Source: Bacilli bacterium (GTDB lineage Bacteria; Bacillota_I; Bacilli_A; RFN20; CAG-826). Taken from it: a stretch of DNA of 64,000 nucleotides. The translations under genes were made by a program, and so were the position numbers. The stretch lies in assembly GCA_017429285.1 (NCBI GenBank), contig JAFRPF010000016.1, forward strand, positions 1 to 64,000, written 5' to 3'. The first letter of the stretch is position 1. Every line of letters begins with the position of its first letter. The notes under the pieces are model-generated. The model was not told the DNA's origin. It did not search any database and saw nothing but the letters and a program-made list of their open reading frames with translations. Of this stretch, positions 832 to 28,036 are shown piece by piece.

Positions 832-3690
832 ATGAAAACTAATAAATTATTTCCAATTTTCTTATTTGTGTTATCTCCTATGGTGATTACCTCCTGCTCC
901 AAAAAAGGAGCGTCAGGTTCTATCTCTGGAGAAGTCGTCGATGAAAACGCTATTTACACCGCGACATTAAATCCATGTAATGGAGATGAACAATATCAAA
1001 AAGACCATGTCTTAAAAGGTAAACATGGTACATTTGCTAACTTACCAAGACAAGGTAATGGTATTACCCCAACTAAAGATGGATATAACTTCGCAGGTTG
1101 GTCCACACAATATGATAAAAACTCTGGTATGGGTGCTAAAGACCATAGATTAAGTGATAATGTCGTGGCTTTTGATAATCAAAATATCGTTTTATACGCT
1201 ATTTATAATAAAACTGGTATTGATAGTGCGACTGCTGAAGCAGAACTTGCGAAATGGAAAGAGATGTCTCAACCAAACCATTTGTACTATCATTACTTCC
1301 GTTTTGATAAAACACAAGAATGCTATGATGACTGGGATGTTTGGGCTTGGCCATATGCTCCTACCGCCGGTGAAGGTACTAAATTCGACTGGGTTGGTAG
1401 AACTCAAAATCCTGAACATAAAGAACAACAAGCCAGTGGTCACGCTACAATCGATCAATACGCTGGTGCTTATATTGATATCGATTTAAATGGTGCTTAT
1501 ACTGGTGGATGGGATAATGATAACAAAGTTATCACTAACGTTCCTGTTAACTTTAGTGACTGCACAAAGATCGGTTTACAAATCGTTCAAACATCAACTA
1601 GAACTGGGACAGGTAAATTCTGGACCAATGATGGTAGTAACTTATATATCAACTTAGCGGATTACGCGGTTGATTGTAATGGTGGTAAAGCTTATCACAT
1701 ATTCGTTGTTCAAGATAACGTTCAATCACCATCTCCTCTTCCAACTGGTGAAAAAGATCCATTTGAAGGAGATACTGGTACGAATACTACCTATCGTAAT
1801 GGTAAATACGATAATATCAACTGGTCCAAGAGAACCGATATGGTAAAAACATCTAAAGACTTCTCGGAATTAGGTGTTGGTTATCAAATCATGGTTTCAT
1901 CCTTCGCTGATAGCGATGGTGATGGATTTGGTGATATCTATGGTATTACTCAAAAATTAGATTATTTACAAAATTTAGGCGTTAAAGCCGTCTGGTTAAC
2001 CCCAATTCAATTATCAGATTCTTATCATGGTTATGATATTACTGATTATGAAAAGGTCGACCCAAAATTTGGTTCCGCGACATCCCCAGCTGGACAAGCT
2101 AATGGCGGTAATGTTGATAGTGATACCGCTTTAGCGGATTATAAAGAATTAATTGCGGAAGCCCATAAACGTGGCATGAAGATTGTTATGGACTTAGTCC
2201 TTAACCATACTTCTACCTCCAATGCTTGGTTTGTAAAATCCGCAAACCTAGACGAACACTTCCGTGGCTATTATCAATGGGGCAATCATGAAACCCAATC
2301 ATCAGTTATTAATCAAAACAATAACTGGTATCCATATGGTAGCCATCCATATTCTTACTACGCTAAATTCGGTTCATCTATGCCAGAACTTAACTTCTCC
2401 TATATGATGACTAGAAAAGCAGTTGAAGAAATGTCTGTTTACTGGGCGAGAGATATCGGTGTTGATGGCTTCAGATTAGACGCTATCAAACATATCTTCA
2501 TGACAAACGAAGTTTCTAGTACCTCTGGTGATACCGTCATCAAAGATATTTCTGCCTCAGGTGATTATTCTAGTGACTTATCTAAAAACTTACAATTCTT
2601 TAGAGAATTAAAGACCATTGTCACTACATGCGCTCATAAGGATGTCTTCTTCGTTGGTGAAAACTTCGATGGTCACGCTTATCAAGTTTCTCCGTATTAT
2701 GAATCATTCGATTCCTTATTTGATTTCTATACTTACTTCAATTTAACTAGTGGCGCAGCTACCGGTAGAACAGGTAGCACATCTGCTTTTGGTACTGTTC
2801 AAGGATTCTTAGGCAATACCTCAACATTTAACGCTAGCAGCGAAGCTAGTATTATTGATAGCGCTAATGTCTTCCAAAAAGCTAATGGTAAACAATGGAA
2901 CTTCCCAGCGGTTTATGGAGTTTATAATGCTTATCGTCAAGATACATCCTTACCAGGTGTCTTCACCTCTAACCACGATATCGCTCGTGTCGTTAATAGA
3001 ATTGCAGGCACCGGGACTCCAGAAGGATTACAAGCACAAGGTAACTTAACCACTAGTAATTATGCCGGTTTTGAAAAATCTGCGAACTGTGTCAAAATTG
3101 CTGAACTTATGTTCCCTGGATTAACTTGGATCTATTATGGTGATGAAATCGGTATGACCGGTAACATCGATGGTGATCCAACCAAAGCTTCAGAAATCCC
3201 ATATGCTGACTTATCTTATCGTCAACCGATGAAATGGGTCGCTAATGGCGCTAAAGGTGATGGTAGTGGTACAACTGATTATTACGTCACTGGTTCATCT
3301 ATGAAAGTTGAACAAGATGAAGTTAATAAGAGTAATGTTGTTAAACCAGCTTTAGAACAGATGAATGACGCGAATAGTGATTATTCATTAATGAAGAAAT
3401 TCGCTACATTAAAGTCTGGTAACGACGAAGTCGGTAAAGCCTTAAGAGTTGGCTCTATGAGTGCGATTAACTGCACAAGTGGTAGTTTAGCCGCTAACGT
3501 CTTATCATTTGAAAGAAAGAGTGGTTCTACAACTGTTAAGGTAATTGTTAATCTTAATATTAATCAAGCCTTCTCACCAAATGATAATAACAATAGATAC
3601 TATGGTATCACTGGTACAGTCTTAGCATCCTATAATGGTGCTTCAACAACAAGCTTACCTCCACTCTCTGCTGTAGTGGTTAAGGCTTAA
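832..3690 (+). CDS. Secreted alpha-amylase lipoprotein (GH13)
   Basis: A 952-residue extracellular starch hydrolase. The signal peptide ends in lipobox ITSC. An InlB-like beta-grasp repeat covers about residues 40-125 and an unassigned Trp-rich beta region about 150-300. The GH13 barrel starts near residue 340. The four classical regions are present: DLVLNHTS (region I), GFRLDAIKH with nucleophile D550, VGENFDG with acid/base E610, and FTSNHD with transition-state Asp D716. A short beta C-domain ends the protein. It should cut alpha-1,4 links of starch at the cell surface and release maltodextrins for the MalEFG importer encoded at 26-30 kb. It is 15 nt downstream of the first lipoprotein gene with its own AGGAGG site, so the two are an operon. 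The exact GH13 subfamily cannot be fixed by eye. Confidence 0.93.
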   Translation: MKTNKLFPIFLFVLSPMVITSCSKKGASGSISGEVVDENAIYTATLNPCNGDEQYQKDHVLKGKHGTFANLPRQGNGITPTKDGYNFAGWSTQYDKNSGMGAKDHRLSDNVVAFDNQNIVLYAIYNKTGIDSATAEAELAKWKEMSQPNHLYYHYFRFDKTQECYDDWDVWAWPYAPTAGEGTKFDWVGRTQNPEHKEQQASGHATIDQYAGAYIDIDLNGAYTGGWDNDNKVITNVPVNFSDCTKIGLQIVQTSTRTGTGKFWTNDGSNLYINLADYAVDCNGGKAYHIFVVQDNVQSPSPLPTGEKDPFEGDTGTNTTYRNGKYDNINWSKRTDMVKTSKDFSELGVGYQIMVSSFADSDGDGFGDIYGITQKLDYLQNLGVKAVWLTPIQLSDSYHGYDITDYEKVDPKFGSATSPAGQANGGNVDSDTALADYKELIAEAHKRGMKIVMDLVLNHTSTSNAWFVKSANLDEHFRGYYQWGNHETQSSVINQNNNWYPYGSHPYSYYAKFGSSMPELNFSYMMTRKAVEEMSVYWARDIGVDGFRLDAIKHIFMTNEVSSTSGDTVIKDISASGDYSSDLSKNLQFFRELKTIVTTCAHKDVFFVGENFDGHAYQVSPYYESFDSLFDFYTYFNLTSGAATGRTGSTSAFGTVQGFLGNTSTFNASSEASIIDSANVFQKANGKQWNFPAVYGVYNAYRQDTSLPGVFTSNHDIARVVNRIAGTGTPEGLQAQGNLTTSNYAGFEKSANCVKIAELMFPGLTWIYYGDEIGMTGNIDGDPTKASEIPYADLSYRQPMKWVANGAKGDGSGTTDYYVTGSSMKVEQDEVNKSNVVKPALEQMNDANSDYSLMKKFATLKSGNDEVGKALRVGSMSAINCTSGSLAANVLSFERKSGSTTVKVIVNLNINQAFSPNDNNNRYYGITGTVLASYNGASTTSLPPLSAVVVKA

Positions 3691-3827: not shown

Positions 3828-6110
3828 ATGAAAAAGAAATTATTTTTGCTTTTACCAGCATTAGGTTTGCTTTTTGGCATGTCTGCATGTGATAACGGAC
3901 CTATGGGTAAAACTAGTGGCAACACAAGTCGAACTTCTCACACTTCAAGCTCAACTAGTAATTCATCTGGTAATACTGGTAGTAGTTCTGAAGAAGGAGG
4001 ATCAAGTTCTCAAGCAGGTGGTAGCTCTGAAGAAGGAGGAGGTTCCTCTCAAGAAGGTGGTTCTTCTGAAGAAAAAGTAGTAACGCCATTTACCTTTAAA
4101 ATTGGCGAAGGTGATGAGATTAACTTTGGCGTTAATCCCGATGAAGAGACTCCACAAGGTTATAAGGCACAATATACTGTTCCTTTTGGTGCAGTAACTG
4201 CCGGACAACAGATTAGATTCTTCTATAACAGCGATGAAATTACAGTTCACGCTGGTGTAAATGAAGCTAGTAACAATGTTTCCTATAACTTAAGTACCAA
4301 AGAAATGAGAGTAGTAATGGCGGCTCAAGAGCCAACATGCTATTTCAAGATTGGTAATGACGATGGATATTCTGTTTGGTTAACAGGTAACACATCCGGT
4401 GAAGGTGGTGGAGACTTTGATCCTACACCTGTAACCACAGGTTTTGGCTTATCCGTTAACGGAGTGGATGTTCCAGGCACTAAAACCGAAGAACAATCTG
4501 AAGGTAGAGATCAATATCTTGTCGCTGGTTTAGAATTAAAAACCAACGATGTTGTTAAAGTTAGAAATTTAGAAAATGAAGATGCTTGGGCTCCTGAAGT
4601 GGAAGAAGCATCATTCGGTGGCGATGTTTCATCATATTTAACCGTCACTGAAAGTCAATATACAGTTAAACAAGACTGTAAAGTCGACGTTTATATCAAG
4701 ATTAAAGGTGAATCCGCCTCTAATGATGCAGTTTATTTCGGATTAGCTGAAGCAGAAAAAGAATTCTCTTACCAAATCGGCACTGGTAGTAAAGTCACCT
4801 TTGGTGAAGAAGAAAAAGACGATGAGCCTCCAACCGGTTATAAAGCTCAATATACATTATCAGTTGGTAATGTTACTAAAGATACACTAATCAACTTCTT
4901 TGATGGTGAAAACGCACTTGAAGTTCACGCTGGTGTAGATCAAGTTGATAATAACGTTTCCTATAATTTAGATACTAAAGAATTAAAAGTGGTTATGGAC
5001 GCTAACGAAGTAACTTGTTACTTTAAGATAGGTAATGATAATGGCTATTCCATTTGGTTAACAGGTAACACATCCGGTGAAGGTGGTGGAGACTTTGATC
5101 CAACACCAGTCACTACTGGATTTGGCTTATCCGTTAACGGAGTGGATGTTCCAGGCACTAAAACCGAAGAACAATCTGAAGGCAGAGATCAATATTTTAT
5201 CGATGACTTAGAATTAAAAACTGGCGATGTCATCAAAGTTAGAAATTTAGAAAATGAAGATGCTTGGGCTCCAGATGTGGAAGATGCTTCATTTAATAAT
5301 AATGTTGCATCATATTTAACAATCACCACTGATCAATACACTGTTAAACAGGATTGTACAGTTGATGTTTATATCAAGATTAAAGGTGAATCCGCCTCTA
5401 ATGATGCAGTTTACTTTGGTTTACCAAAAGTATATTCATATCAAATCAATACTGGCACGCCAGTTGTCATTCCAGAAAGCGCGAAGAGTGATTTAGTGGA
5501 TGATAAAGACGTAAAATATGGCGTCCAATATAAGATTGGTGATGATGATTTGCAGCTCAAGAAAGGCGATATCATCAAATTCTACGAAAACGATACACCA
5601 TTCTATCCACATGCTTGGGGAGAAGGAAATAATGGTGTCTATGATGAAACCACACAATTAATCAGTGTTCATAATGATGTAAATACTGGTACCATTTATT
5701 TAAAATGGTATGACGATAACCCAGGTAACCCAGATGTTTGGGTGACAGGTTATGTCGCTAATACCACAACAATCTATTGCAAGATGGAATATGACTGGTG
5801 GACTGTTGATGGCGCCGCTGTTGGTATTTATTATTGGGGAGAAGGTTCAACTCCAGTAGCATGGCCAGGAGTAAGAATGAATCCTGTGACTGGACATCCA
5901 AATGTTTGGTCATTTGAACTTGATATTGAATTATATCCAAGTGTTATATTCACTCGCGTTAATGGTAGTGGTGATGTTTCAGATTGGGGTGCTAAAACTG
6001 AGGATTTAGTTATTCCTACAGATGGTAAAAATCTATTTACTATTACAACTAGCACTGCTATTTGGGGTGACCCAGGATGCAGTGGAGAATGGTCAGTATT
6101 TAATGCATAA
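3828..6110 (+). CDS. Multi-module starch-binding lipoprotein
   Basis: A 760-residue lipoprotein (lipobox MSAC). I chose ATG 3828 because AAAGGA lies 9 nt upstream and the signal peptide starts there. A Ser/Gly/Glu-rich linker covers about residues 25-84. The rest is modular: module A (about 86-187), module B (203-306), A again (311-413), B again (429-531), a diverged A (536-643) and a C-terminal CBM26-like starch-binding module (646-760) with the pattern WW...YYWGEG...AWPG. The A-B pair is duplicated at DNA level. No catalytic domain is visible, so it probably binds starch at the surface. Modules A and B also occur in the 6781 and 7684 proteins; I do not recognise them as named families. The CBM26 assignment rests on its aromatic pattern. 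Confidence 0.85.
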   Translation: MKKKLFLLLPALGLLFGMSACDNGPMGKTSGNTSRTSHTSSSTSNSSGNTGSSSEEGGSSSQAGGSSEEGGGSSQEGGSSEEKVVTPFTFKIGEGDEINFGVNPDEETPQGYKAQYTVPFGAVTAGQQIRFFYNSDEITVHAGVNEASNNVSYNLSTKEMRVVMAAQEPTCYFKIGNDDGYSVWLTGNTSGEGGGDFDPTPVTTGFGLSVNGVDVPGTKTEEQSEGRDQYLVAGLELKTNDVVKVRNLENEDAWAPEVEEASFGGDVSSYLTVTESQYTVKQDCKVDVYIKIKGESASNDAVYFGLAEAEKEFSYQIGTGSKVTFGEEEKDDEPPTGYKAQYTLSVGNVTKDTLINFFDGENALEVHAGVDQVDNNVSYNLDTKELKVVMDANEVTCYFKIGNDNGYSIWLTGNTSGEGGGDFDPTPVTTGFGLSVNGVDVPGTKTEEQSEGRDQYFIDDLELKTGDVIKVRNLENEDAWAPDVEDASFNNNVASYLTITTDQYTVKQDCTVDVYIKIKGESASNDAVYFGLPKVYSYQINTGTPVVIPESAKSDLVDDKDVKYGVQYKIGDDDLQLKKGDIIKFYENDTPFYPHAWGEGNNGVYDETTQLISVHNDVNTGTIYLKWYDDNPGNPDVWVTGYVANTTTIYCKMEYDWWTVDGAAVGIYYWGEGSTPVAWPGVRMNPVTGHPNVWSFELDIELYPSVIFTRVNGSGDVSDWGAKTEDLVIPTDGKNLFTITTSTAIWGDPGCSGEWSVFNA
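4381..5418 (+). repeat. Tandem 678-bp intragenic duplication
   Basis: The stretch starting near 4381 recurs from 5059, an offset of 678 bp (226 codons), with long identical blocks, for example the Gly-rich linker and the coding of NGVDVPGTKTEEQSEGRDQY. The duplication covers one A-B module pair and keeps frame. Near-identity of DNA, including third positions, suggests recent duplication or ongoing gene conversion. Confidence 0.85.
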
Positions 6111-6138
6111 TTATTTATAATTAAGGAGATAATAAATT

Positions 6139-6654
6139 ATGAAAAAACTTTTATTAACATTAGGAGCAACTGCTTTAATCTTAGGATTAGGTGCTTGTAA
6201 CAATTCCAAAAAAGCTAAATCTGAAGATAAGAGTGTTCCTGAAGCAACTTCTAAAACCGCAAGTTCAGATGATGTAGTTTCTGAAGCTGGTGGTAGTGGA
6301 GGCGGCGGAGAAGAAGGTAAAATCTACTGCAAGATGGAATATGACTGGTGGACCACAGATGGCGCTGCTATCGCTTTATATTGCTGGGGTGCTGGCGATC
6401 CCAAAGTGGCTTGGCCAGGTGAAAGAATGACACCAGTTGAAGGCCAAGATCATATGTGGTCAATTGACTATGACGCCGCAACCTATCCAAACTTAATCTT
6501 TGTGAGAGTGAATGGTAGTGGTGATATTTCAGATTGGGGTGCTAAAACCAAAGATCTTACCGCACCTACTGACGGAAGTAATCTTTATACAATTACTAAC
6601 AGTACTGCCAGTTGGGGTGACCCTGGCTGTGATGGTGTATGGTCAACATTCTAA
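6139..6654 (+). CDS. Small CBM26-type starch-binding lipoprotein
   Basis: 171 residues: signal peptide with lipobox LGAC, a short Ser/Gly linker, then one CBM26-like module (about 61-171). The module is closely related to the C-terminal module of the protein encoded just upstream. Shared segments include YCKMEYDWW, AWPG, RVNGSG and SDWGAK. It lies 28 nt after the upstream gene with AAGGAG before the ATG and probably shares its mRNA. With only a binding module, it likely captures or concentrates starch at the membrane. Confidence 0.85.
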   Translation: MKKLLLTLGATALILGLGACNNSKKAKSEDKSVPEATSKTASSDDVVSEAGGSGGGGEEGKIYCKMEYDWWTTDGAAIALYCWGAGDPKVAWPGERMTPVEGQDHMWSIDYDAATYPNLIFVRVNGSGDISDWGAKTKDLTAPTDGSNLYTITNSTASWGDPGCDGVWSTF

Positions 6655-6677
6655 ATTATTAATTAAAACTATTTACG

Positions 6678-6704
6678 AGAGTCGATTTATTCGGCTCTTT
6701 TATT
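6678..6704 (+). terminator. Rho-independent terminator
   Basis: Stem AGAGTCGA / TCGGCTCT (one G-T pair) with loop TTTAT and a T-rich tail. It closes the two-gene starch-binding operon. Confidence 0.8.
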
Positions 6705-6780
6705 ATGATGTCATCAATATTTTTTGTAATATTTAAATAATCCTTTATAATCTAAATAAATATTGGGACGGAGAAGATAT

Positions 6781-7533
6781 ATGAAAAATAGAATAATCTA
6801 CTTATTACCATCATTAGGAATCTTATTCGCTACAATAGCGTGTAGTAATGGTTCTAAAAAGAATAAAAGTAATTCTTATAACTCCGATATTTCATATACC
6901 ACTAGTATCGATGGTACAAGTATAGCTATTTCTAGTGAAACTGAAACTTCTATCGGCGCTAGCAGCGATGAAAATAGTAGTCAAACTTCTTCCAATTCTT
7001 CCCAAGGTCAAAGCTCTGATAATTCTAGTGGCGGAGCCTCTTCTAATAACTCTTCCATTGGAGCCTCTTCTAACAATTCTTCAAGTGACTATTCATTTAA
7101 TCAGAGTTCTCCAGGTGGCTATTCTGACCATAGTTCAGGCTACTCTTCTGGATATTTCTCCTCTCCTGGAGGATATTCTGATTTTAGTTCCGGTGGATAT
7201 TATGCATCACAATTCTCCTATCGATATGGTGAATATGATGAGACACCATTCTATGAAGAAACATGTGTCACTTTATTAAATGAATATAGTCAACGTGTTG
7301 GTATTAGATACCATGTAGCGCTTGATCATGTTGATAAAGACACTCCATTATCTTTCTATGTTTATGGAGGAGAAATAAATGATGTTATTATTCCAAATAA
7401 TGGTAATAACATCGTTAATGATCAAGGCATTATTAAAGTAATTAATAACGCTTCTAATAGTGTTCTATTCTTCACCATATTTGATGATAATCCCTATCAA
7501 CCATATGTTTTCTTAGAAGCATATAACAAATAA
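6781..7533 (+). CDS. Ser-rich lipoprotein with one recurring A-type module
   Basis: 250 residues. I chose ATG 6781 (GGACGGAG upstream; the signal peptide begins there), giving lipobox IAC. Residues about 30-150 are a low-complexity Ser/Asn/Gly/Tyr-rich stalk with imperfect repeats of the GASSNNSS and GGYSDHSSG kind. The C-terminal 95 residues resemble module A of the neighbouring starch-binding lipoproteins, including a FDDNP segment near the end that matches YDDNPG in the 3828 protein. No catalytic residues are evident. A binding role on a flexible stalk is inference. Confidence 0.75.
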   Translation: MKNRIIYLLPSLGILFATIACSNGSKKNKSNSYNSDISYTTSIDGTSIAISSETETSIGASSDENSSQTSSNSSQGQSSDNSSGGASSNNSSIGASSNNSSSDYSFNQSSPGGYSDHSSGYSSGYFSSPGGYSDFSSGGYYASQFSYRYGEYDETPFYEETCVTLLNEYSQRVGIRYHVALDHVDKDTPLSFYVYGGEINDVIIPNNGNNIVNDQGIIKVINNASNSVLFFTIFDDNPYQPYVFLEAYNK

Positions 7534-7547
7534 ATAAGTACAATAAG

Positions 7548-7571
7548 AGGAACTAATGTTCCTTTTTTTGT
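7548..7571 (+). terminator. Rho-independent terminator
   Basis: Stem AGGAAC / GTTCCT, loop TAAT, then seven T. Confidence 0.85.
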
Positions 7572-7603
7572 CGAATTAGTCATATTTATCTATATATTTG
7601 GTG

Positions 7604-7632
7604 TTGTTAAAATAACATACATTATCTATAAT
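7604..7632 (+). promoter_or_regulatory. Promoter of the anchored starch-binding protein
   Basis: TTGTTA (7604-7609) and TATAAT (7627-7632), 17 nt apart. The perfect inverted repeat TGTTA-AAA-TAACA (7605-7617) overlaps the -35 box and could be an operator. AAAGGAG precedes the ATG at 7684. Confidence 0.65.
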
Positions 7633-7683
7633 TAAAGTATATTAATAGGCGCATTCGTAACGAAGCGCTCAAAGGAGTTAGAT

Positions 7684-10332
7684 ATGAAAGCAAAACATGT
7701 TTTCTTAACTATGGGACTTTCTTTAGTTATGGGTTTAGGTGTGGCCGCTGGCATGTCCGCTAATAGAGAAGTGAAGGCTGCTAACGCTGCTGGTACATCT
7801 CGTTTGTATTTTGATGTTACTTCAACTACTTGGTGGAATAACGCCGGCGCATTAACTTATGCTTATTGTCATGATGGTGCCACAAGTCCATCTTGGCCTG
7901 GTGTTCCAATGACAAAGGTTGCTGGAGAGACATATAAATATTATGTTGATATCGACTCTGCATTCACTAAAGTTATCTTTTGCAGAGTGGATCCAAACGA
8001 TCTTACAAATGTATGGAATAGGACATCAAAAGATGGCGGAATATCAATCAATCTTCCATCCGATTATACAAGTAAAAATCAATGGAATTTAACGGCTGAT
8101 GGTACCAATTATGATGATGGCAATTATTGTGGTAACTGGTCATTATATACTCCTCCTACAACAAAAAAAGTCGCAGTTTATGTAAATGGCGACAAAAGAG
8201 GGGATGAAGATGTAGCCATTGGTGGTTTACCAGAAGATCCTGAATACTATGGTGTCAACTTTGATGGTAAGTGGTATACCGATGCTGCAATGGAAACAGA
8301 ATGTACAGCTGTAACAGCAAGTACAACTGAATTATATTGTGCAACCACAACAGCTGCTGATGTGACATTTACATTAGATACAACAAGAGCTACTGATAAG
8401 TTTGCAGACACATATTTGTATACATGGTTTGAAGGACATGATCCTAAAACTGCATGGCCAGGTGATAAATTCACAACAAGCACGTTTACTGTTAAAGCAG
8501 GATCAAAATTTATTATTAATGCTGGCCAAGATAAAGAACAAACCGTAAACATTGATGCTAGCGCAGCCGCTAATGATAAATTGTTCATTTTAAGTTCTAC
8601 TGATGAATCAGGACACTATGAAACAGAATGGGCTTCTGGTCTTCCTGTTTACAAAGTTAGAAGAAACAATAGTGAACAATATGAATATACATTCACACTT
8701 GATGAAGATGATTTACCTTCAGGTGTTAAACATCAATATTCTGCGATAGTTCCTAATGCCTACCGTGCTAATGAATTAGTGTTCTATAAAGATGGAACAA
8801 AAATGACAGCCGATATTGGTGTTGATGTTAGTGACACCAATAATATTGTTGGTAACGTTACTGATGGATTTAAAATCTATCATGGTAATAACTCCATGAA
8901 GATCTACTTAAAAGAATATGATGATGGATGTTCATTATGGGGCGAAGGATATGCAGAAAATGAATTCTACATTCCCGGACTTACTGATTCTCCAAGCAAA
9001 TACATCGTGTTAGATAATGATTTTGAGCCTTATGGAGATTATATTAAACAATATAAATCTATCGCTTTAAGTATTGCCGTTAAAGGCGAAGCACAAGATA
9101 AGTATCATGTTATGGATAATGGTGCAAGTACAATGCAACAATTAACTGCTGAAACTGCTGGTCAAAACAATGCTTATATGACATCTGGTTCTTATTTCAA
9201 TGTTCATAATGCTTGTAACACTGAAGTTTATATCAAGATGAAAACTGACTTATCATTAGTCATTTATATCGGTGGATATGTTGAACAACACGTGATGACT
9301 ATTGGCGGTCAAGAAATTGTTATGGAACCATATGAAGGTGGTCAATATCGCGCTACTGGTGTTACATTACATGCTGGTGATACCTTAACATCATATGAAA
9401 TTGATGGCGTTGAAAAAGTTAGCGAAGTTAGTGCTAAAGTAGTGGGTAACAACAACTTAGGTGCCGACAAAAAAGTCATCGTTGATGCAACTGCTGATAT
9501 TTACTATAACGTTGCTAATAAGACATTACATGTTTCTGGATTACCAACTGGTGGCTATCACATCATTAAAAATGGCACAACCTTAATTACCATGACTCAT
9601 GGTGAAGAAGCTTACGGTTATGACCAATATTATTCTGATTTATTAACATTTGCTGTTAATGACACGATTAAGTTTGTTGACACTAATGGTGAAGAAGGCG
9701 TAAAAGCAGCAACAGTCTTCTCTATTAGTAAAATTGATGAAGCTGATCCACAAGGAAAACAAGATTGCTTCACATATGAGGAAACTAATCAAGTTATTAA
9801 ATGTGTGACCGCTACATCAGCAACAGTCTATTTAAAGATTAATTCTACCTTAGGCGACAAAGTTTACTTTGGACCAGTTCCAAAATATGTCCAAGACGCT
9901 TACGACTTCGCTAATGCGTTTAATACCGCAATTGAAGCAGTTTGTACTGATGTTGAAGATGCTGAAACAGCTGCAGAAATAGAGGCTGCTAGACAAGATT
10001 TAGAAGATGCCTGGGGAGATAAAGCTATTGAATTTGAAGACTTATCTGAACAAGCACAAGGTTATTTAAAGGGTGAATCTGCTCAATCAGTCGCAGAATT
10101 ACGTTCCTTCTTCGAAAAATACGATAGAGTCTATACATATAGAAAAATTAGATTCTCATGGAATTTATCAAACTTCTTAGAAAGAAACTTCTCCAATAGT
10201 GCTTATATTAATCCAATTATGATTAATAAAGCTAATAGTGTAGTGATGGTGTCAATCATTGTTAGTATGGTGACATTATTCGTTAGCGCTGGTGTGGTCT
10301 TATTCCTCTTCAAGAAGAAAAAACATAATTAA
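7684..10332 (+). CDS. Large membrane-anchored multi-module starch-binding protein
   Basis: 882 residues. It has an N-terminal signal peptide without lipobox Cys and a C-terminal helix (about 855-876) followed by KKKKHN, so it would be tethered by its C-terminus. There is no LPXTG. Order of parts: CBM26-like module (38-156; WW, AYCHDG, SWPG), a short InlB-like repeat (161-222), a second CBM-like module with AWPGD (224-315), module A (323-429), three B-like modules (about 430-535, 537-632, 633-735) and a helical, acidic membrane-proximal segment (738-830). No glycoside hydrolase motif is seen. It has its own promoter and terminator. It probably acts as a large surface scaffold for starch granules or dextrins, which is inference from the modules and neighbours. 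Confidence 0.82.
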   Translation: MKAKHVFLTMGLSLVMGLGVAAGMSANREVKAANAAGTSRLYFDVTSTTWWNNAGALTYAYCHDGATSPSWPGVPMTKVAGETYKYYVDIDSAFTKVIFCRVDPNDLTNVWNRTSKDGGISINLPSDYTSKNQWNLTADGTNYDDGNYCGNWSLYTPPTTKKVAVYVNGDKRGDEDVAIGGLPEDPEYYGVNFDGKWYTDAAMETECTAVTASTTELYCATTTAADVTFTLDTTRATDKFADTYLYTWFEGHDPKTAWPGDKFTTSTFTVKAGSKFIINAGQDKEQTVNIDASAAANDKLFILSSTDESGHYETEWASGLPVYKVRRNNSEQYEYTFTLDEDDLPSGVKHQYSAIVPNAYRANELVFYKDGTKMTADIGVDVSDTNNIVGNVTDGFKIYHGNNSMKIYLKEYDDGCSLWGEGYAENEFYIPGLTDSPSKYIVLDNDFEPYGDYIKQYKSIALSIAVKGEAQDKYHVMDNGASTMQQLTAETAGQNNAYMTSGSYFNVHNACNTEVYIKMKTDLSLVIYIGGYVEQHVMTIGGQEIVMEPYEGGQYRATGVTLHAGDTLTSYEIDGVEKVSEVSAKVVGNNNLGADKKVIVDATADIYYNVANKTLHVSGLPTGGYHIIKNGTTLITMTHGEEAYGYDQYYSDLLTFAVNDTIKFVDTNGEEGVKAATVFSISKIDEADPQGKQDCFTYEETNQVIKCVTATSATVYLKINSTLGDKVYFGPVPKYVQDAYDFANAFNTAIEAVCTDVEDAETAAEIEAARQDLEDAWGDKAIEFEDLSEQAQGYLKGESAQSVAELRSFFEKYDRVYTYRKIRFSWNLSNFLERNFSNSAYINPIMINKANSVVMVSIIVSMVTLFVSAGVVLFLFKKKKHN

Positions 10333-10627: not shown

Positions 10628-11344
10628 ATGGATAAATTAACTAACGAACAATTAGAAAAATATCATCGTCATATCTTATTAGATAACATCAAAGAAGAAG
10701 GACAAATTAAATTATTAAATTCTTCTATTTTAGTCGTGGGTGCAGGGGGACTTGGATCCACAGTTTTAACATTATTAACCACAACTGGAATTGGTCGTAT
10801 TGGTATTATTGATAATGATATTGTTTCTTTATCTAATCTACCGAGACAATTAATCTATGATTATAAAGATTTAAATAAGTTAAAAGTTAAGGCGATTAAA
10901 GCCAAATTAAGAAAGAAAAATCCTGATGTTAAATTTAAGCTTTATCCATATAGATTAAATAAAGATAATTTATCTACATTTAAAAAATATGATTTAATCA
11001 TCGATTGTTCAGATAATTTTGAGACTAAATTTTTAATTGATAAAGCTTGCGAAAAATTTAAAAAACCATATGTTAGCGCAGGGGTCAGCGGCTATCAAGG
11101 ACAGGTTTATACTTATATCCCTAAATTATCTAAACCATTTTCATCTTTATTTAATGAGATACCAGAGGACACTACGAAAGAATATGTCGATAATGGTGGA
11201 GTTTTTCCTAGCGCCGTCACCTTATTAGCGTCTATAGAAACTAGTGAGGCTATTAAGTATTTATTAGGCAATGAACCGTTATCAATTAATGAATTATTTG
11301 TTATCGATTTGCTCAATTTACACTGCAAAAAAATAAAAATATAA
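10628..11344 (+). CDS. ThiF/MoeB-family E1-like adenylyltransferase
   Basis: 238 residues. It shows the nucleotide-binding GAGGLGS (about 38-44), the Asp-containing strand DNDIVSLSNLPRQ and DCSDN, all hallmarks of ThiF/MoeB/HesA enzymes that adenylate the C-terminal Gly of a ubiquitin-fold carrier. Its likely substrate is the ThiS-like protein encoded 2 nt upstream. The two CxxC zinc pairs of typical MoeB/ThiF are absent: the segment where the first pair and nearby catalytic Cys usually lie reads FSSLFNEIPED, and the C-terminus keeps a single Cys (HCKK). Zinc-free members exist, but with no Cys in that loop thioester chemistry looks unlikely and simple adenylation more likely. The pathway is not identifiable here. 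Confidence 0.85.
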   Translation: MDKLTNEQLEKYHRHILLDNIKEEGQIKLLNSSILVVGAGGLGSTVLTLLTTTGIGRIGIIDNDIVSLSNLPRQLIYDYKDLNKLKVKAIKAKLRKKNPDVKFKLYPYRLNKDNLSTFKKYDLIIDCSDNFETKFLIDKACEKFKKPYVSAGVSGYQGQVYTYIPKLSKPFSSLFNEIPEDTTKEYVDNGGVFPSAVTLLASIETSEAIKYLLGNEPLSINELFVIDLLNLHCKKIKI

Positions 11345-11442: not shown

Positions 11443-12669
11443 ATGAAAAGTTTGAAGCTCATCTTAGGACTCGCTTTAGGCACCACCGGTTTAGGTAGTA
11501 CTATTGCCTTTGGTGTGGCTAATAACGTAGTTCAACAAAATAGTGTCGCTCCTGCTGAAGCTGCTGGAAGTATTCCTTCTGGAGTTTATGTTGATATCAG
11601 TGCATGTCAATGGGCAGCATGGGGAGCAACTCTAGATAATATCAAGGCTTATTACTGGGGTGGTAGCAGTTCACCAACATGGCCAGGAACCAAAGTATCA
11701 CAAATTTCTGTTAATGGTACTACATATGGCTATATTGCATTACCTAGCGATGCTAAAAATATTGCTTTTAATGCTTGGGATGGAAAAGATAACGGATATG
11801 ATGCTGATAAAAATAAAACAGTTGATCTCACAATCCCAACTGATGGCACTTGTTTATTCAAAATTACTACATATAATACAAACAGTAAACAAAATGGTAG
11901 TTGGGCTAATTTAGAACAACGCTATACTGGAACTACAACACCTTCTGCCAAAACAGGCAGATTATTTACAAACAATGATCAAGCCCATACAGATTGGAAA
12001 GATGGTGTTAACCTAGCGGTTAGAGCATGGGGTGGTAGCGCTTCTAAGGCTAATAACATTATAAATAGTTTTGTTTCGGCTTCGACTTATATGGTTACTT
12101 GGGTTGATGGCGGAGCTGAAGATGGCAAATGGTATGCATATGCTGATGTTCCGACAGACATTACTGGATTCCAATTCGTTAGAATGTCGGGATCAACAGC
12201 TACGGCAGATGTTTGGTCATATTCTGACGCCTTTGAACTTTCTTCTGATTCGTTCAGTACCGTTTATTTCTTAAAAGCTACAAGTACAGATTATTGCCCT
12301 GTTGAAAGAAATAAAGCTAATAGTGTAGGTCCTGGATTAGCAACAAATTTATTTGCCGCTTACGACACATGCTCCAGCAGTTCATATAATGGTTATGGTG
12401 CTTATAACAGCTTGAACACTAATTTTTTTGCTCAACTTACAGCCGAGGCTAATTCAACTCAATGTACGTCTTTAAATGGTGCTGCTAATTACACTGTTGC
12501 TCAACACGTAGCCGGAATGGCTCGTCGTCCAGCAAGTTTACTAGGATCAAATATTATTAACGGCTTAGATAAGGCAGCAAATCCAATTCTATTAACGACT
12601 GTTATTGGTATTTCTGGCATTTCGATAATTGGTATATTCTTCTTCGTTAAGAAAAGAAAACAACAATAA
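11443..12669 (+). CDS. Membrane-anchored protein with CBM26-like modules
   Basis: 408 residues with a signal peptide (no lipobox Cys), a CBM26-like module (about 47-160: QWAAWG, AYYWGG, TWPG), a second, diverged beta module (171-287) containing RAWGG and FVRMSG, a Ser/Asn-rich membrane-proximal part with a Cys pair, and a C-terminal helix (382-401) ending KKRKQQ. The layout matches the larger scaffold at 7684: starch-binding modules outside and a C-terminal membrane tail. No enzyme motif. It is a single-gene unit with a strong promoter and terminator. Starch binding is inferred from the aromatic pattern. Confidence 0.8.
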   Translation: MKSLKLILGLALGTTGLGSTIAFGVANNVVQQNSVAPAEAAGSIPSGVYVDISACQWAAWGATLDNIKAYYWGGSSSPTWPGTKVSQISVNGTTYGYIALPSDAKNIAFNAWDGKDNGYDADKNKTVDLTIPTDGTCLFKITTYNTNSKQNGSWANLEQRYTGTTTPSAKTGRLFTNNDQAHTDWKDGVNLAVRAWGGSASKANNIINSFVSASTYMVTWVDGGAEDGKWYAYADVPTDITGFQFVRMSGSTATADVWSYSDAFELSSDSFSTVYFLKATSTDYCPVERNKANSVGPGLATNLFAAYDTCSSSSYNGYGAYNSLNTNFFAQLTAEANSTQCTSLNGAANYTVAQHVAGMARRPASLLGSNIINGLDKAANPILLTTVIGISGISIIGIFFFVKKRKQQ

Positions 12670-12710: not shown

Positions 12711-12734
12711 TAAAAAGATATCCATTAGGATACC
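12711..12734 (-). terminator. Terminator overlapping the CotH stop codon
   Basis: Read on the minus strand, GGTATCC / GGATATC forms a stem with loop TAAT followed by a T run. The stop codon TAA of the CotH gene lies in the loop. Confidence 0.75.
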
Positions 12735-14266
12735 TTAATATCATATGTAGTGTTGTTTTGTTTTATTTTAGATATCTTTTTAGATAAATAATTAGAGAAG
12801 GTAATATTGCTATTTCCGGAACTATGGTCATAACCCGCTCCATTTTTATTACATCCATATGTGGATGAATAAGAAGTGACGTAACTATTAAATGATTCAG
12901 TGGATATAGTTTTATTATTTAATAATTGTTCTATCGTTGTTTGATATAAATTACGATATTCTTCAATTCTTTCGATATTCTTATGCGATGTATTAGAACA
13001 TATTGTTCTCCAGAAAATATTGCTTTCTTGCCAATTACCACTTAATTGCATCTTTGTGCTTTCCGCGGAGAAATTAGTCATATCTTCTTGTTTACCTAAT
13101 GTTCCCATTCCAAAGCATCTATCAAAGTCATAAGGGATGTAATAAGCCCTGTGAGAAGTAGAAGAGAAGTAAAGATAATAATTATTCATATTATTTCTAA
13201 AATCATCTGGATTGCCGGCGATAAAGGCGATAGCTTCTTCTTTAACAAAGTTAGTTACATCAAAATATTGTTCTAATTTATTTTTATAAGTAGATGCTGG
13301 TGTCGAATTCTCATTAAATACTTGGATGAGATTTAATAGATCGCTGTGATTTGATTTCTTTTTATTAGTTTTTAAATCATAAGATGGATGATAATTATTC
13401 GCGTTATTTTCAACGCCTATTTGATTACCCACAGTATAATTAGAGGAAAAATTCGCAGGTGCGCTTGTATATGTACACTTATATAAATCTCCTGAGGCTT
13501 CTTCTTTGGTGAAATGTCTTTTGATAAATATTTCATCGATACATTCTAATATTTCATAAGTAGTGGAAATACTTGTGTCATTATTAATACCTAATGAAAT
13601 AACACCTAATGTATCGTGCTGCGCTAATAGATTATTATCTCTAAATGTTTTTAAAGTATAAGCTTGTTTTAATTTCGTTTCATCACCGTTTCTATTCCAT
13701 TTAAGATCAATCTTTTCCATCCCAAATAGGGTGCGGTTTTTTCTTTCTTTTCTTTTAGAAGCATCATCCCAAGTCTTTTTAAATGGCGTTAACGCGGGAA
13801 TATTAGTGTATTCTTCATCATCAAATGTTTGTTTAAAAGATAATTTGAAGTGAGATAAAGAATTTAAAGTGAAATGGTTATTATCTAAGAAATGTCCTCT
13901 AGACAAATTACCTTTCACTCTGATACCAACTTCTTCAAATTCATAGACTCTACCATTTAATGTTAATTTAACATTACAAGGAACGTAATAATCGTGATAT
14001 GTCGAATCATTATGATCAGTTTGATAATCATTCATGAATTTTGCGGCATCTAAAGACATCTTTATTTCTAAATTAACTAAAGAGGTCGGATTAAATAATT
14101 CTAAATATTCTTCACTATCAATAATTTCTGGATCTCCTTCGATTGGATCGCTAGGAGTGATAGAAGAATCTTGATGAGAGGTATTGTTACTAGTGGTATT
14201 AGTTTTTACTGTACAACTCACCAAAGTGATTAATAATAAAGGAGAAAGAAATAAATATTTTTTCAT
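12725..14266 (-). CDS. CotH-type protein kinase lipoprotein
   Basis: 513 residues with signal peptide and lipobox LVSC, followed by a Ser/Thr/Asn linker. The body matches the CotH kinase fold: RVKGNLSRGHF in the N-lobe, KLSFK, and the metal-binding motif IPYDFDRCFG with D380 and D382. CotH proteins in other bacteria phosphorylate secreted or coat proteins; in gut bacteria they are often found beside carbohydrate-degrading genes. Here it is an extracytoplasmic lipoprotein between starch-binding genes and MalQ. Its substrate is unknown; neighbouring surface proteins are a guess. No ribosome site is seen; a TATGAT box lies 6 nt before the ATG. Confidence 0.85.
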   Translation of the reverse strand: MKKYLFLSPLLLITLVSCTVKTNTTSNNTSHQDSSITPSDPIEGDPEIIDSEEYLELFNPTSLVNLEIKMSLDAAKFMNDYQTDHNDSTYHDYYVPCNVKLTLNGRVYEFEEVGIRVKGNLSRGHFLDNNHFTLNSLSHFKLSFKQTFDDEEYTNIPALTPFKKTWDDASKRKERKNRTLFGMEKIDLKWNRNGDETKLKQAYTLKTFRDNNLLAQHDTLGVISLGINNDTSISTTYEILECIDEIFIKRHFTKEEASGDLYKCTYTSAPANFSSNYTVGNQIGVENNANNYHPSYDLKTNKKKSNHSDLLNLIQVFNENSTPASTYKNKLEQYFDVTNFVKEEAIAFIAGNPDDFRNNMNNYYLYFSSTSHRAYYIPYDFDRCFGMGTLGKQEDMTNFSAESTKMQLSGNWQESNIFWRTICSNTSHKNIERIEEYRNLYQTTIEQLLNNKTISTESFNSYVTSYSSTYGCNKNGAGYDHSSGNSNITFSNYLSKKISKIKQNNTTYDIKVS

Positions 14267-15169: not shown

Positions 15170-16582
15170 ATGAAAGATAATGTTGGCGTTTTGCTTCCAG
15201 TTGCCTCTTTGCCTGGCAATCATGGTATCGGAGATTTTGGTCCGAGCGCTTTTCGTTTTTTACGTTTTTTAAAAAGAAATAATTATAAATATTGGCAAGT
15301 CCTACCTCTTAATCCGGTTGGACCTGGTAATTCTCCATATATGTCAACTTGTTCAGAAGCTATTGAACCAAGATATATATGTTTAGATTTATTAGTCAAA
15401 GAAGGACTACTGAAAAGAGTTAAAAAATTTAAACCAAAAACAAACTTCATCAAATATCACGAAGTGGAATTATTTAAAGAAAAATATCTATATCAAGCTT
15501 ATCGAAATTTCTTAAAAACTCCGATGAGAGGATATAAAAAATTTAAAAAGGATAATCCATGGTTAGTTCCTTTTGCGACCTTTATTACCTTTAGAAGACA
15601 TCGTAATTATCAGCAGTGGAATTATTGGCCTAAAGAATTAGTCCATTATTTTGATAACCACAAATCTTATCCAGAAGAATATAAAGATGAATGCGAATTT
15701 CAAATCTTTATGCAATTTATGGCTTATAAGCAGTGGAATAAGGTGTGGAGATACGCCAAAAAATTAGGAATAGTCATCATCGCCGATTGCCCATTCTATG
15801 TCGGTATCGATTCCACAGATTGCTGGTTAAATAAAGAACAATTCTTGATGGATGAAAATTATCATCCAACTTTAGTGAGTGGTTGTCCTCCCGATGCTTT
15901 CTCTGATGATGGCCAACTTTGGGGCACACCAATCTACGACTTTAAAAAGATGAAAGAAGATCATTATAAATTCTTAGTCCATAGAATTGGCTATCTCGCT
16001 AATACATGTGATTTATTAAGACTAGATCATTTTAGAGCTTGGGACACATATTGTGTCATCCCTGCTGAAGACACTAACGCTAGACGTGGTGTGTGGTGGG
16101 AAGGTCCAAGATATGAATTCTTCGATGAATTATATAAACAATATCCCAATATCCATTTAATCGCTGAAGACTTAGGTGATTTATTCCAAGGTGTTCACGA
16201 TTTAAGAGATCATTATCGTTTACCTGGTATGTATATCGTGGAATTTACCATATTCGACTTAAAAGCGAATAGTAAACCAACTCAGATTGTTTATCCTGGT
16301 ACCCATGATAACCAAACCTTATATGGTTGGTATAAATCGTTAACTCCAGAAAATATTAAATTCTTAAATGAAAGATTTAATTATCCAAAAGATTTATATG
16401 AAACTATTTTCCAATATATTTGGAACTTACCTTCCTTAATGACTATTTATCAACTTCAAGATTTAATGAAGCTTGATGATAGAGGTCGTATCAATTGGCC
16501 AGGAACAGTAGGGGAGCCAAACTGGTGCTTTAAGTTAAGAGATTTCTCATTTATGAGAAAGATTAAATATCATAACAACTAG
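15170..16582 (+). CDS. malQ: 4-alpha-glucanotransferase (GH77, amylomaltase)
   Basis: 470 residues, slightly shorter than the usual ~500. It opens with LPVASLPGNHGIGDFG and NPVGPGNSPY, the GH77 signature start, and keeps the catalytic set: nucleophile D286 in RLDHFRAWD, acid/base E333 in IAEDLG and D380 in GTHDNQT. It transfers alpha-1,4-glucan chains between maltodextrins in the cytoplasm, lengthening imported short chains so that glycogen phosphorylase (encoded at 32.6 kb) can use them. The pullulanase gene follows after 11 nt with its own AGGAGG site, so they form one operon. Confidence 0.95.
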   Translation: MKDNVGVLLPVASLPGNHGIGDFGPSAFRFLRFLKRNNYKYWQVLPLNPVGPGNSPYMSTCSEAIEPRYICLDLLVKEGLLKRVKKFKPKTNFIKYHEVELFKEKYLYQAYRNFLKTPMRGYKKFKKDNPWLVPFATFITFRRHRNYQQWNYWPKELVHYFDNHKSYPEEYKDECEFQIFMQFMAYKQWNKVWRYAKKLGIVIIADCPFYVGIDSTDCWLNKEQFLMDENYHPTLVSGCPPDAFSDDGQLWGTPIYDFKKMKEDHYKFLVHRIGYLANTCDLLRLDHFRAWDTYCVIPAEDTNARRGVWWEGPRYEFFDELYKQYPNIHLIAEDLGDLFQGVHDLRDHYRLPGMYIVEFTIFDLKANSKPTQIVYPGTHDNQTLYGWYKSLTPENIKFLNERFNYPKDLYETIFQYIWNLPSLMTIYQLQDLMKLDDRGRINWPGTVGEPNWCFKLRDFSFMRKIKYHNN

Positions 16583-16593
16583 GAGGATAGAGT

Positions 16594-19500
16594 ATGAAGA
16601 AGAAACAAATAATACTCGGTTCAGTGATGTTAGGCGCGCTTACCTTAGGCGCGATTGCTCCTAATATCTTCAAAAAAAGCCAAAAGGAGATGATTGGAGA
16701 AGATAACGCTCTTTATGGTGATCGTTTAGAAGTCGATTACAATAATCCAGATGTTGTTTTCCCAAAAGAAGCGGGTGAAGCGACGGTTAAAGCCGCAAGC
16801 GTCAGCATCCGTTATCATGATCCAGCTTACGATAGTGATACCTCTGTTTACACTGATCGTGAATTCTGGATTTGGTGTAATGGTGCTAATGGTGTGGCTC
16901 ATGAAGCTAGTATTAAAACCGATTCCGATGGTTTCCATTATATTGAAACATCATTCGATTTTACCGGTGATTATTCCGCTTTCTATGGAAAGAAGAGTAT
17001 CTTCTTCATCGTTAAATATAAAAAAGGGACCACTAAAGGTGGTGGCGATGGTTGGCAAAATAAATCTTTAAATATCGAAGTTGAATATAAAGATGAATTC
17101 GTGCCAAATAAAGATGGCCATGTCGATATTTGGGGCATACCTAGTGAAGGTAGCGATGTCGAAGTTTACGGCACAAAAGAAGGTACAACCACTGATCGAT
17201 TCTTAAAAGCTAGTTTTGATAAAGACTGGAAGTCTATCTCCGTTAAAACCACTTCCGCGAAAGGTGTGCAGTTCAAATTATATGCATTAACATCAAATTA
17301 TATGAATAACTCCATATCGGCGAATTTAGATGATTATCTAATCGCTTATGGTACCGCTACAAAAGCTAATTTCAAAATTATGCTTAAACAAGTGGTGAGA
17401 GTAAATGTTCAATATTTATTAACAGGTGTCTTCCCAGATTATCCACAATACACCAAGAAAAAATATGTGGCTGCGGATGCATTCTATGAAACACCTAGAT
17501 TTAAACAATATTATGAATATAACGGTAACGATTTAGGTTGCACTTATAACGATGATAAATCCACAACATTTAAAGTCTGGGCTCCAGCTTCTGCTAATGT
17601 CAGGGTTTATCTATATAACAGTGGTTCTGAACTCAAATATAAGAGATGGGATGAAAGTGCGACTGATTCACCTGCTGGTGGCTATAATATGGCCTTTAGA
17701 CCAGGTGGTGTTTGGGAATTAACCATTAAAAATAAAGACTTAAAAGGTATGTATTACCGTTATTTTGTCGCTAATTCATTAGGACAACAAGAAACGATGG
17801 ACCCATACGCTAAAGCTTGTGGTGTTAACGGTGAACGAGCCATGATCGTCGATTGGAAAGAAACTAATCCTGATGGATGGGACAGCGTCCCCGCTGTTTG
17901 GGATGGAGTGGATGGATATGATATTAGTAATCCAAACGATTTATCGATCTATGAAACTCATATTAGAGATTTAACAATGGATTCTTCTTGGACTGGTAGT
18001 TCCGTAAGAGGTACTTATAGTGCCTTCTCAGAAAAAGGCACTAGATATAGTGACGGCACTACGGAAGTGACAACCGGCTATGATCACATCGAAGAATTTG
18101 GTGTGAAAGCCATCCAATTAATCCCAGTATTTGATAATGATAATATGGAAGGTACTGGTAATATCTACGAAGGAGATGTTGATACTGGTAAACCAGAAAG
18201 AACCTATAACTGGGGCTATAATCCTCTTAACTATAACTGTGTTGATGGTTCTTACGCGACTGATCCATATAACGGTATCTCTCGTATTAAAGAATATAAA
18301 TCATTAATTAAGGCATATAGTGAAAACGCTAACCATACCAGAATCATTATGGACGTTGTCTATAATCACGTTTCTAGTATCGCTCAACACTGTTTCACAA
18401 AATTAATGCCAAAATATTATTTCCGTTATGATGCTTCTGGTTCACCATACGATGGTAGTGGTTGTGGTAACGAAGTGAAATCTGAAGCCCCAATGATGAG
18501 TAAATATATCGTTGATTCATTATGCTGGTGGGCCAAAGAATATAAAGTCAAAGGTTTCCGTTTTGACCTTATGGGCTTAGTGGATTGGCAAACAATCAAA
18601 AAAGCCGCTCAAGAATTATATAAGATTGATAAAGATATTTATCTTTATGGTGAAGGTTGGGCCTCATTTGGTGGCTGCCATTTAGATCCAAGTCTATATC
18701 CAGATAACTGGGGTGCTGATACATGGCATGTTTATAACAAATTATATAAACAAGGCGAAATGTGCTATGTCGGTTGCTTTAATGATAAAGCCAGAAATGA
18801 AATGGCTGGTGAAACCGGCAATATCAACGATTGGGGATTTGTTTTACAAGGTTCCTCTGATGTTGGTAGGAAATCAATTTCATTAGCAGATATGTTAGTG
18901 GGATATCATACAGGAAGTGAATATGATGATGACAATAGAATGGGTGCTAACCCAAATCAGATGGTAGCGTATTCATCATGTCACGATGATTTCTCAACTT
19001 ATGATCATATTTGGTATTTATTACGTGAAGTTTTAAAAGGCTCTGATAGAAGACAAATGACCGATGTCGCTGCCGCAGTTGCATCGGTGGAATCTACAAT
19101 CATGATGACAAATGGTGTCGCCTTTATTCAAGGTGGACAAGAAATCTTCTTATCTAAACAAGTAACCCAAGCAGATATTGAAGAATATGGTGACGAAGTT
19201 TTAGAACGTTGTGCGACAGTGGAAGGCGTCAAAGTCTCTTCTAACTCTTATAAGTTAAGAGATGAAACTAATTCCATTAAATGGGATCGTAAAATCGCTA
19301 TTACAGATTTAGATAACGGAACTAAAGTTCCTGTTAATCAATTCTATCAAGGAATTAAAAAAGCCTGTAACGAAAGAAATAAGATGGCTAAATACGATTA
19401 TGATTATTTACAAGCTCATAATCCATTTGGAACTAGCGCTGATGGTTTAAAGGTTTTGATTCGTGGCGAAGGTAGTAACAAAGTTCAAATCAATAACGGT

Positions 19501-19692
19501 AATTATACATTTATTACCGCCGGTAATACTGGTGACGGTTGTGCTGATGGCTTTGTCTCTTATCAATATGAAGCCAGCGCTACTAGAGTCTTTACTTCTA
19601 ATTCAGGTACAGATGGCCAAGGTAAAGGCTATAATGTTGCCACAGGTGGTATTAATATGTGGTGGTATACCTCAGTATTATTTAAAAGATAA
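16594..19692 (+). CDS. pulA: Secreted type I pullulanase (GH13_14)
   Basis: 1032 residues. The N-terminal signal-like segment has no lipobox; it may be cleaved or remain as an anchor. A CBM41-like module begins near residue 69 (SIRYHDP, FWIWCNG), an unassigned beta region follows, and a CBM48-like N-domain starts near 325 (FKVWAPASANVRVYLY). The pullulanase-specific YNWGYNP lies before the barrel motifs DVVYNH, GFRFDLMG (nucleophile D658), YGEGWA (acid/base E687) and SSCHDD (D798). It debranches alpha-1,6 links in pullulan, amylopectin or their limit dextrins, complementing the two alpha-amylases. Second gene of the malQ operon. Confidence 0.93.
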   Translation: MKKKQIILGSVMLGALTLGAIAPNIFKKSQKEMIGEDNALYGDRLEVDYNNPDVVFPKEAGEATVKAASVSIRYHDPAYDSDTSVYTDREFWIWCNGANGVAHEASIKTDSDGFHYIETSFDFTGDYSAFYGKKSIFFIVKYKKGTTKGGGDGWQNKSLNIEVEYKDEFVPNKDGHVDIWGIPSEGSDVEVYGTKEGTTTDRFLKASFDKDWKSISVKTTSAKGVQFKLYALTSNYMNNSISANLDDYLIAYGTATKANFKIMLKQVVRVNVQYLLTGVFPDYPQYTKKKYVAADAFYETPRFKQYYEYNGNDLGCTYNDDKSTTFKVWAPASANVRVYLYNSGSELKYKRWDESATDSPAGGYNMAFRPGGVWELTIKNKDLKGMYYRYFVANSLGQQETMDPYAKACGVNGERAMIVDWKETNPDGWDSVPAVWDGVDGYDISNPNDLSIYETHIRDLTMDSSWTGSSVRGTYSAFSEKGTRYSDGTTEVTTGYDHIEEFGVKAIQLIPVFDNDNMEGTGNIYEGDVDTGKPERTYNWGYNPLNYNCVDGSYATDPYNGISRIKEYKSLIKAYSENANHTRIIMDVVYNHVSSIAQHCFTKLMPKYYFRYDASGSPYDGSGCGNEVKSEAPMMSKYIVDSLCWWAKEYKVKGFRFDLMGLVDWQTIKKAAQELYKIDKDIYLYGEGWASFGGCHLDPSLYPDNWGADTWHVYNKLYKQGEMCYVGCFNDKARNEMAGETGNINDWGFVLQGSSDVGRKSISLADMLVGYHTGSEYDDDNRMGANPNQMVAYSSCHDDFSTYDHIWYLLREVLKGSDRRQMTDVAAAVASVESTIMMTNGVAFIQGGQEIFLSKQVTQADIEEYGDEVLERCATVEGVKVSSNSYKLRDETNSIKWDRKIAITDLDNGTKVPVNQFYQGIKKACNERNKMAKYDYDYLQAHNPFGTSADGLKVLIRGEGSNKVQINNGNYTFITAGNTGDGCADGFVSYQYEASATRVFTSNSGTDGQGKGYNVATGGINMWWYTSVLFKR

Positions 19693-25454: not shown

Positions 25455-25469
25455 TTAATTAATAAATTA

Positions 25470-25494
25470 ACCACCATTTTATGGTGGTTTTTTC
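25470..25494 (+). terminator. Rho-independent terminator
   Basis: Stem AACCACCA / TGGTGGTT with loop TTTTA and a T run. Confidence 0.88.
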
Positions 25495-25513
25495 GATAAT
25501 AAATAGGTATTTT

Positions 25514-26374: not shown

Positions 26375-26409
26375 TTTATATGAAATATAAGACTAATTGT
26401 GATTTTATA

Positions 26410-26438
26410 TTGTTTTACAAAAGTAAAAAATCTATAAT
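26410..26438 (+). promoter_or_regulatory. Promoter of the malEFG operon
   Basis: TTGTTT (26410-26415) and TATAAT (26433-26438), 17 nt apart; the ATG of malE follows at 26481 with AGGAG upstream. Confidence 0.6.
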
Positions 26439-26480
26439 TTTATTGAACCTTCCTTATGGAAAAGAGATAGGAGATAATTT

Positions 26481-27989: not shown

Positions 27990-28036
27990 TTAAAATTATT
28001 CAATAAATTGAATGTAAAAGAGAAAGGAGGAAATAT

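Follow-up and report, generated by a model that had tools for sequence, protein, structure and literature searches.

What are the two recurrent modules on the surface proteins of this starch locus, and what do they do there? A preliminary description of the window (the whole stretch of 64,000 nucleotides analysed here) had defined two beta modules, A and B, shared by three surface proteins. It had left their family open, proposing that they may be undescribed carbohydrate-binding modules.

An alpha-glucan locus with module-bearing surface proteins

The locus, from a rumen-type Bacilli bacterium, holds a complete gene set for starch digestion, with two GH13 proteins, a GH77 enzyme, a CBM48-containing pullulanase-like protein, a Mal-type ABC importer and several CBM26-like proteins. 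Those surrounding the module-bearing genes are:

832-3690, + strand: GH13 alpha-amylase-family lipoprotein (PF00128, E=5e-65)
11443-12669, + strand: surface protein with a CBM26-like module (11563-11932, from alignment with the other CBM26-like modules) and a C-terminal membrane anchor
15170-16582, + strand: GH77 4-alpha-glucanotransferase (PF02446, E=4e-124)
16594-19692, + strand: CBM48-containing protein (PF02922, E=4e-10), probably pullulanase-like
20887-23076, + strand: second GH13 protein (PF00128, E=7e-17)
23586-29635, + strand: MalK-, MalE- and MalF-like ABC importer genes (ABC_tran with OB_MalK, SBP_bac_8, BPD_transp_1)

The protein encoded at 11443-12669 has no Pfam match of its own. 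A ThiF/E1-like enzyme gene (10628-11344; PF00899, E=6e-65) lies between starch surface-protein genes, and a CotH kinase-like lipoprotein (12725-14266; PF08757, E=2e-22) is encoded inside the cluster on the opposite (-) strand.

The 3828, 6781 and 7684 proteins are real open reading frames, organised with a small neighbour as follows:

3828-6110, + strand: surface lipoprotein of 760 aa with a lipobox, a Ser/Gly-rich linker, modules in the order A1-B1-A2-B2-A3 and then a CBM26-like module
5763-6107, + strand: CBM26-like module of the 3828 protein, 65% identical in alignment to the module of the 6139 protein
6139-6654, + strand: lipoprotein with one CBM26-like module and neither A nor B (weak PF16738 match, E=2.2e-4, under the Pfam cut-off)
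6781-7533, + strand: lipoprotein with a long Ser-rich linker and one divergent A (7210-7524), a chain without CBM26 (open reading frame and profile)
7684-10332, + strand: surface protein of 882 aa with a signal, a CBM26-like module (7789-8148), A and three further modules

The C-terminal part of the 7684 protein consists of a helical spacer followed by a membrane segment with KKKK. Both this protein (9883-10332) and the 11443 protein (12300-12669) end in a membrane segment and a Lys-rich tail in place of LPXTG. These tail regions have no Pfam match, and like tails end several module proteins of relatives (e.g. L041:5725-7491, L070 and L128). A and B had been said to occur always beside CBM26-like modules. 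This is not strictly so: the 6781 chain is without CBM26, and in most module loci of other genomes GH13, GH77 or pullulanase genes are present and a CBM26 match is absent.

Number and identity of the copies

Profiles built from the window modules detected, in the whole 1.26 Mb genome, five A and five B places with strong scores, all at this locus; the B profile additionally picked two A copies weakly. Because these profiles contain the copies themselves, each copy was retested by leave-one-out against 500 shuffles and with profiles from other genomes:

4080-4394, + strand: A1 (leave-one-out 91 bits, best shuffle 8)
4437-4754, + strand: B1 (passes leave-one-out; W kept at canonical site 2)
4752-5072, + strand: A2 (leave-one-out 107 bits, best shuffle 9)
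5115-5432, + strand: B2 (model pLDDT 93; top PDB matches SusE, SusE, SusF)
5430-5756, + strand: A3 (leave-one-out 31 bits; 39 bits against external relatives)
7210-7524, + strand: A of the 6781 protein (divergent, the weakest A copy)
8674-8955, + strand: A of the 7684 protein (external A profile 82.6 bits; modelled at pLDDT 80-88)
8974-9282, + strand: superfamily module previously called B (family profile 27.7 bits, 0/500 shuffles), neither clearly B nor A
9283-9543, + strand: superfamily module previously called B (family profile 26.2 bits, 0/500 shuffles), nearer A (NNN motif)
9547-9882, + strand: B of the 7684 protein (leave-one-out 27.6 bits, best shuffle 12), without the site-2 W

The original count of A, three copies in the 3828 protein and one in each of the other two, was borne out: with window copies alone, all five reached 29-107 bits in leave-one-out, as compared to shuffle maxima of 7-14 bits. 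With the profile built on relatives elsewhere, the 6781 copy scores a marginal 10.1 bits, the best shuffle reaching 9.8. B had been counted twice in the 3828 protein and about three times in the 7684 protein. This holds for 4437-4754, 5115-5432 and 9547-9882, but not for 8974-9282 and 9283-9543, which fail leave-one-out as B with the window copies (7-11 bits, the shuffle level). Both score as members of the wider superfamily (26-28 bits, 0/500 shuffles) with equal likeness to A and to B, and the strict A/B split was dropped for these two copies, which fit A as well as B. Model confidence is low in the middle part of 8974-9282.

At the DNA level, B1 and B2 are 85% identical, as compared to 65% for the neighbouring A1 and A2, which suggests that the B part may have been recently duplicated or gene-converted.

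Sequence links to the SusE/SusF (X25) superfamily

The A and B modules of the three window proteins gave no match in Pfam, NCBIfam or PDB sequences, none exceeding a curated cut-off; SH3 and ribosomal S17 matches of these proteins were sub-threshold and taken as chance. PF16411 (SusF_SusE) is absent from the window proteins and from the whole of their own genome. The Pfam search that had been proposed as a check was informative through the relatives, where PF16411 matches the L070 protein with 28.7 bits (cut-off 27.5) and the L067 protein with E=3e-5. When 53 modules were scanned singly, six matched SusF_SusE and every other family matched two at most. Of 224 genomes of the family, 14 had PF16411 over its cut-off; a Bacteroides was the only one of 14 control genomes to do so.

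Alignment of profiles with hhalign linked both modules to canonical X25/SusE-SusF modules of related proteins, with probabilities of 95.7% for A and 94.5% for B, whereas a CBM26-like control alignment gave 0.3-3, and at most 3.1%, against either. The hhalign scores compare separate alignments, so that the X25 match is not built in, though the X25-like set was itself gathered by profile iteration. The window A and B sets align with each other at 90%; the wider A-type and B-type sets do so weakly (13.7%). A relationship of A or B to CBM26 was rejected, with no PF16738 match on either module and hhalign values of 3.1% or less. A search of PDB sequences with a mixed profile of 13 canonical modules, one further X25-like module and three B-type modules retrieved SusF (E=3.3e-9) and SusE (E=1e-3). 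Matches of a broad profile to CBM E1 (E=0.07), TNF-like and SH3 entries were judged to be chance, since this mixed profile, weighted towards canonical X25, ranks SusF and SusE top.

On these sequence comparisons, A and B are best described as branches of one described superfamily and not as two unrelated new families; they are locally new, their kind being already known. The suggestion of an unknown family thus stands insofar as the window copies fall outside every curated model, but both branch from the SusE/SusF/X25 superfamily.

Predicted fold

Structure prediction, likewise proposed at the outset, gave a SusE/SusF-like model for B. B2 alone (19 sequences) was modelled at pLDDT 93.3, and the first three PDB ranks of its fold search were SusE 4FEM, SusE 4FCH and SusF 4FE9 (probability 0.99-1.00, TMq 0.53-0.65); below these came amylase entries at 0.2-0.3, and Sca5 X25-2 (7RPY) at rank 48. 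A model of the four modules of the 7684 protein, A included (five sequences), had a mean pLDDT of 76, with 80-88 in the A region and less than 50 in the middle of the second module. Its first PDB match was SusF 4FE9 with probability 1.00, the second match being at 0.05. Foldseek E-values were modest (0.07 for B) despite the high probabilities, and the fold claim accordingly depends on the concurrence of both models with the sequence profiles and the context. The SusE/SusF beta-sandwich is thus the predicted fold of B alone, the four-module model containing A pointing the same way.

Relatives and their genomic context

A single profile iterated over 33 loci converged at 132 copies in 59 proteins and matched none of 254 open reading frames of control regions. 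A starch enzyme was found in 24/32 module loci of related genomes as compared to 0/20 control regions of the same genome group (nominal Fisher P 3e-8, the loci not being independent by descent). In these relatives, B-type lipoproteins adjoin amylase, pullulanase-like or GH77 genes, and in one GH13 enzyme of 1091 aa (L044) B stands in the same chain as a Big_2-like stretch and an X25-like module. A-type modules, examined separately in 14 further loci, occur in chains shared with CBM26-like and W-bearing X25-like modules, in several loci beside GH13 genes. B-type matches were confined to this order in a class-wide sample (9/395 genomes), and those relatives that bear a name are MAGs from rumen, goat and reindeer with the label Erysipelotrichaceae or Bacilli.

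Two relatives show further module architectures. A mosaic lipoprotein of 1247 aa (L060:169-3912) combines three stretches of CBM20, an AMPK1_CBM-type domain and A/B-type modules, and L127:1-2036 encodes five consecutive A-type modules in one 678-aa frame with no match to CBM26 queries.

The putative binding site and the alternatives

In SusE/SusF and in the X25 modules of Sca5, starch sits on aromatic residues, each X25 module of Sca5 having two positions with conserved Trp; in Ruminococcus bromii Sca5, single X25 lobes did not bind on their own even with both Trp present (PMC9112005). In a common alignment of 126 modules, 41 have W at the first aromatic position, within a loop that neither A nor B possesses. 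W, Y or F occupies the second position in 73 modules, B1 and B2 having W; most A copies have no aromatic there. The two-aromatic alpha-glucan platform (first-loop W plus a second-site W or Y) is consequently incomplete in B and missing in A. Since the first-W loop is absent from both modules and the second site from A, the known binding mode is not simply transferable. Assignment to the starch-binding modules fits the SusE/SusF fold match, the profile links and the starch-gene context, but the canonical platform is missing in A and half missing in B.

The main rival to alpha-glucan binding is a spacer function of A. A, and perhaps some B, might be a non-binding X25-fold spacer or stalk projecting the CBM26-like modules from the cell surface, which we consider possible, at rather less than even odds. 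The loss of both canonical aromatic sites in A and of the first in B would fit such a role, as would long tandem arrays such as the five A copies of the 678-aa frame and the high degeneracy of two copies in the 7684 protein. The conservation of specific residues argues against it: B-type modules keep W54 (90%, the second canonical position), S62 (100%) and Y75 (95%), and the 36 non-redundant A-type copies keep N65 (86%), K89 (97%), W99 (85%), G102 (96%) and Y103 (80%), within an A-specific conserved motif, NN and K...GGYSxWxxGY. So do the occurrence of B in a GH13 enzyme (L044) and the arrays without a match to CBM26 queries, in L127 and many related loci. A more specific idea, that A binds alpha-glucan as a variant SusE/SusF sandwich with a site rebuilt without the aromatic pair (from the NN loop and the K...GGYSxWxxGY strand), in tandem arrays spread across one gut-Bacilli order, is speculative and somewhat less probable still than the spacer.

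It is improbable that A and B are protein-protein modules of a surface complex, cohesin-like or adhesive Ig-like, and not glycan binders. Cohesins and Ig-like adhesins, too, typically present tandem beta-sandwiches on surface proteins, and Big_2 Ig-like domains do occur in neighbouring proteins; however, starch-binding proteins head the fold matches, with no cohesin among the matches listed, Pfam scans of the window and relatives revealed neither dockerin nor cohesin, and the context is one of alpha-glucan metabolism. Least credible of all is that A and B form entirely new CBM families with no relation to known starch modules, as the lack of matches to the window copies in Pfam, NCBIfam and PDB sequences might suggest, a reading already disfavoured by profile comparison, PF16411-matching intermediates, PDB profile matches and folds that all lead to SusE/SusF.

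We thus favour, with a probability of roughly three in four, the reading of A and B as divergent branches of the X25/SusE-SusF starch modules that would hold alpha-glucan at the surface of the cell in this Bacilli starch locus. Placed in tandem beside CBM26-like modules, on both lipoproteins and membrane-anchored proteins, they could cooperate in a multivalent capture of starch or glycogen in which each chain contributes several weak modules kept apart by flexible Ser/Gly linkers. The alpha-glucan retained at the surface would be cut by the GH13, pullulanase-like and GH77 enzymes of the locus, and the Mal-type importer would take up the maltodextrins.

Comparison with known starch systems

CBM26 (PF16738) is starch-binding, as A and B would be, and is found in their chains or in neighbouring genes, but has no profile similarity to them. 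X25 modules are found in Sas20 and Sca5 of R. bromii and in the pullulanase of Bacillus acidopullulyticus (PMC9112005). The R. bromii proteins share with the present locus tandem beta-sandwich starch modules, a Firmicutes surface system and CBM26 and GH13 partners (PMC9112005); they differ in that no dockerin was seen in our Pfam scans. Sca5 X25-2 forms a two-lobe clamshell with four Trp (PMC9112005), while A keeps 0/2 and B 1/2 of these positions in each module. SusE/SusF of Bacteroides thetaiotaomicron (PF16411; PDB 4FCH, 4FEM, 4FE9) are similar in the predicted fold of B, in superfamily profile similarity and in belonging to a starch locus whose surface lipoproteins bear the modules in tandem. 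In contrast, the window copies match no Pfam model, lack the W-bearing first loop, belong to a Bacilli host and have CBM26-like companions.

A family link is thereby supplied for modules missed by curated libraries in an uncultured lineage of starch-using gut Bacilli. It indicates that SusE/SusF-type modules, best known from Bacteroidota, may also serve Gram-positive surface starch systems, and it raises the testable question of starch binding by a SusE/SusF sandwich without the usual aromatic pair.
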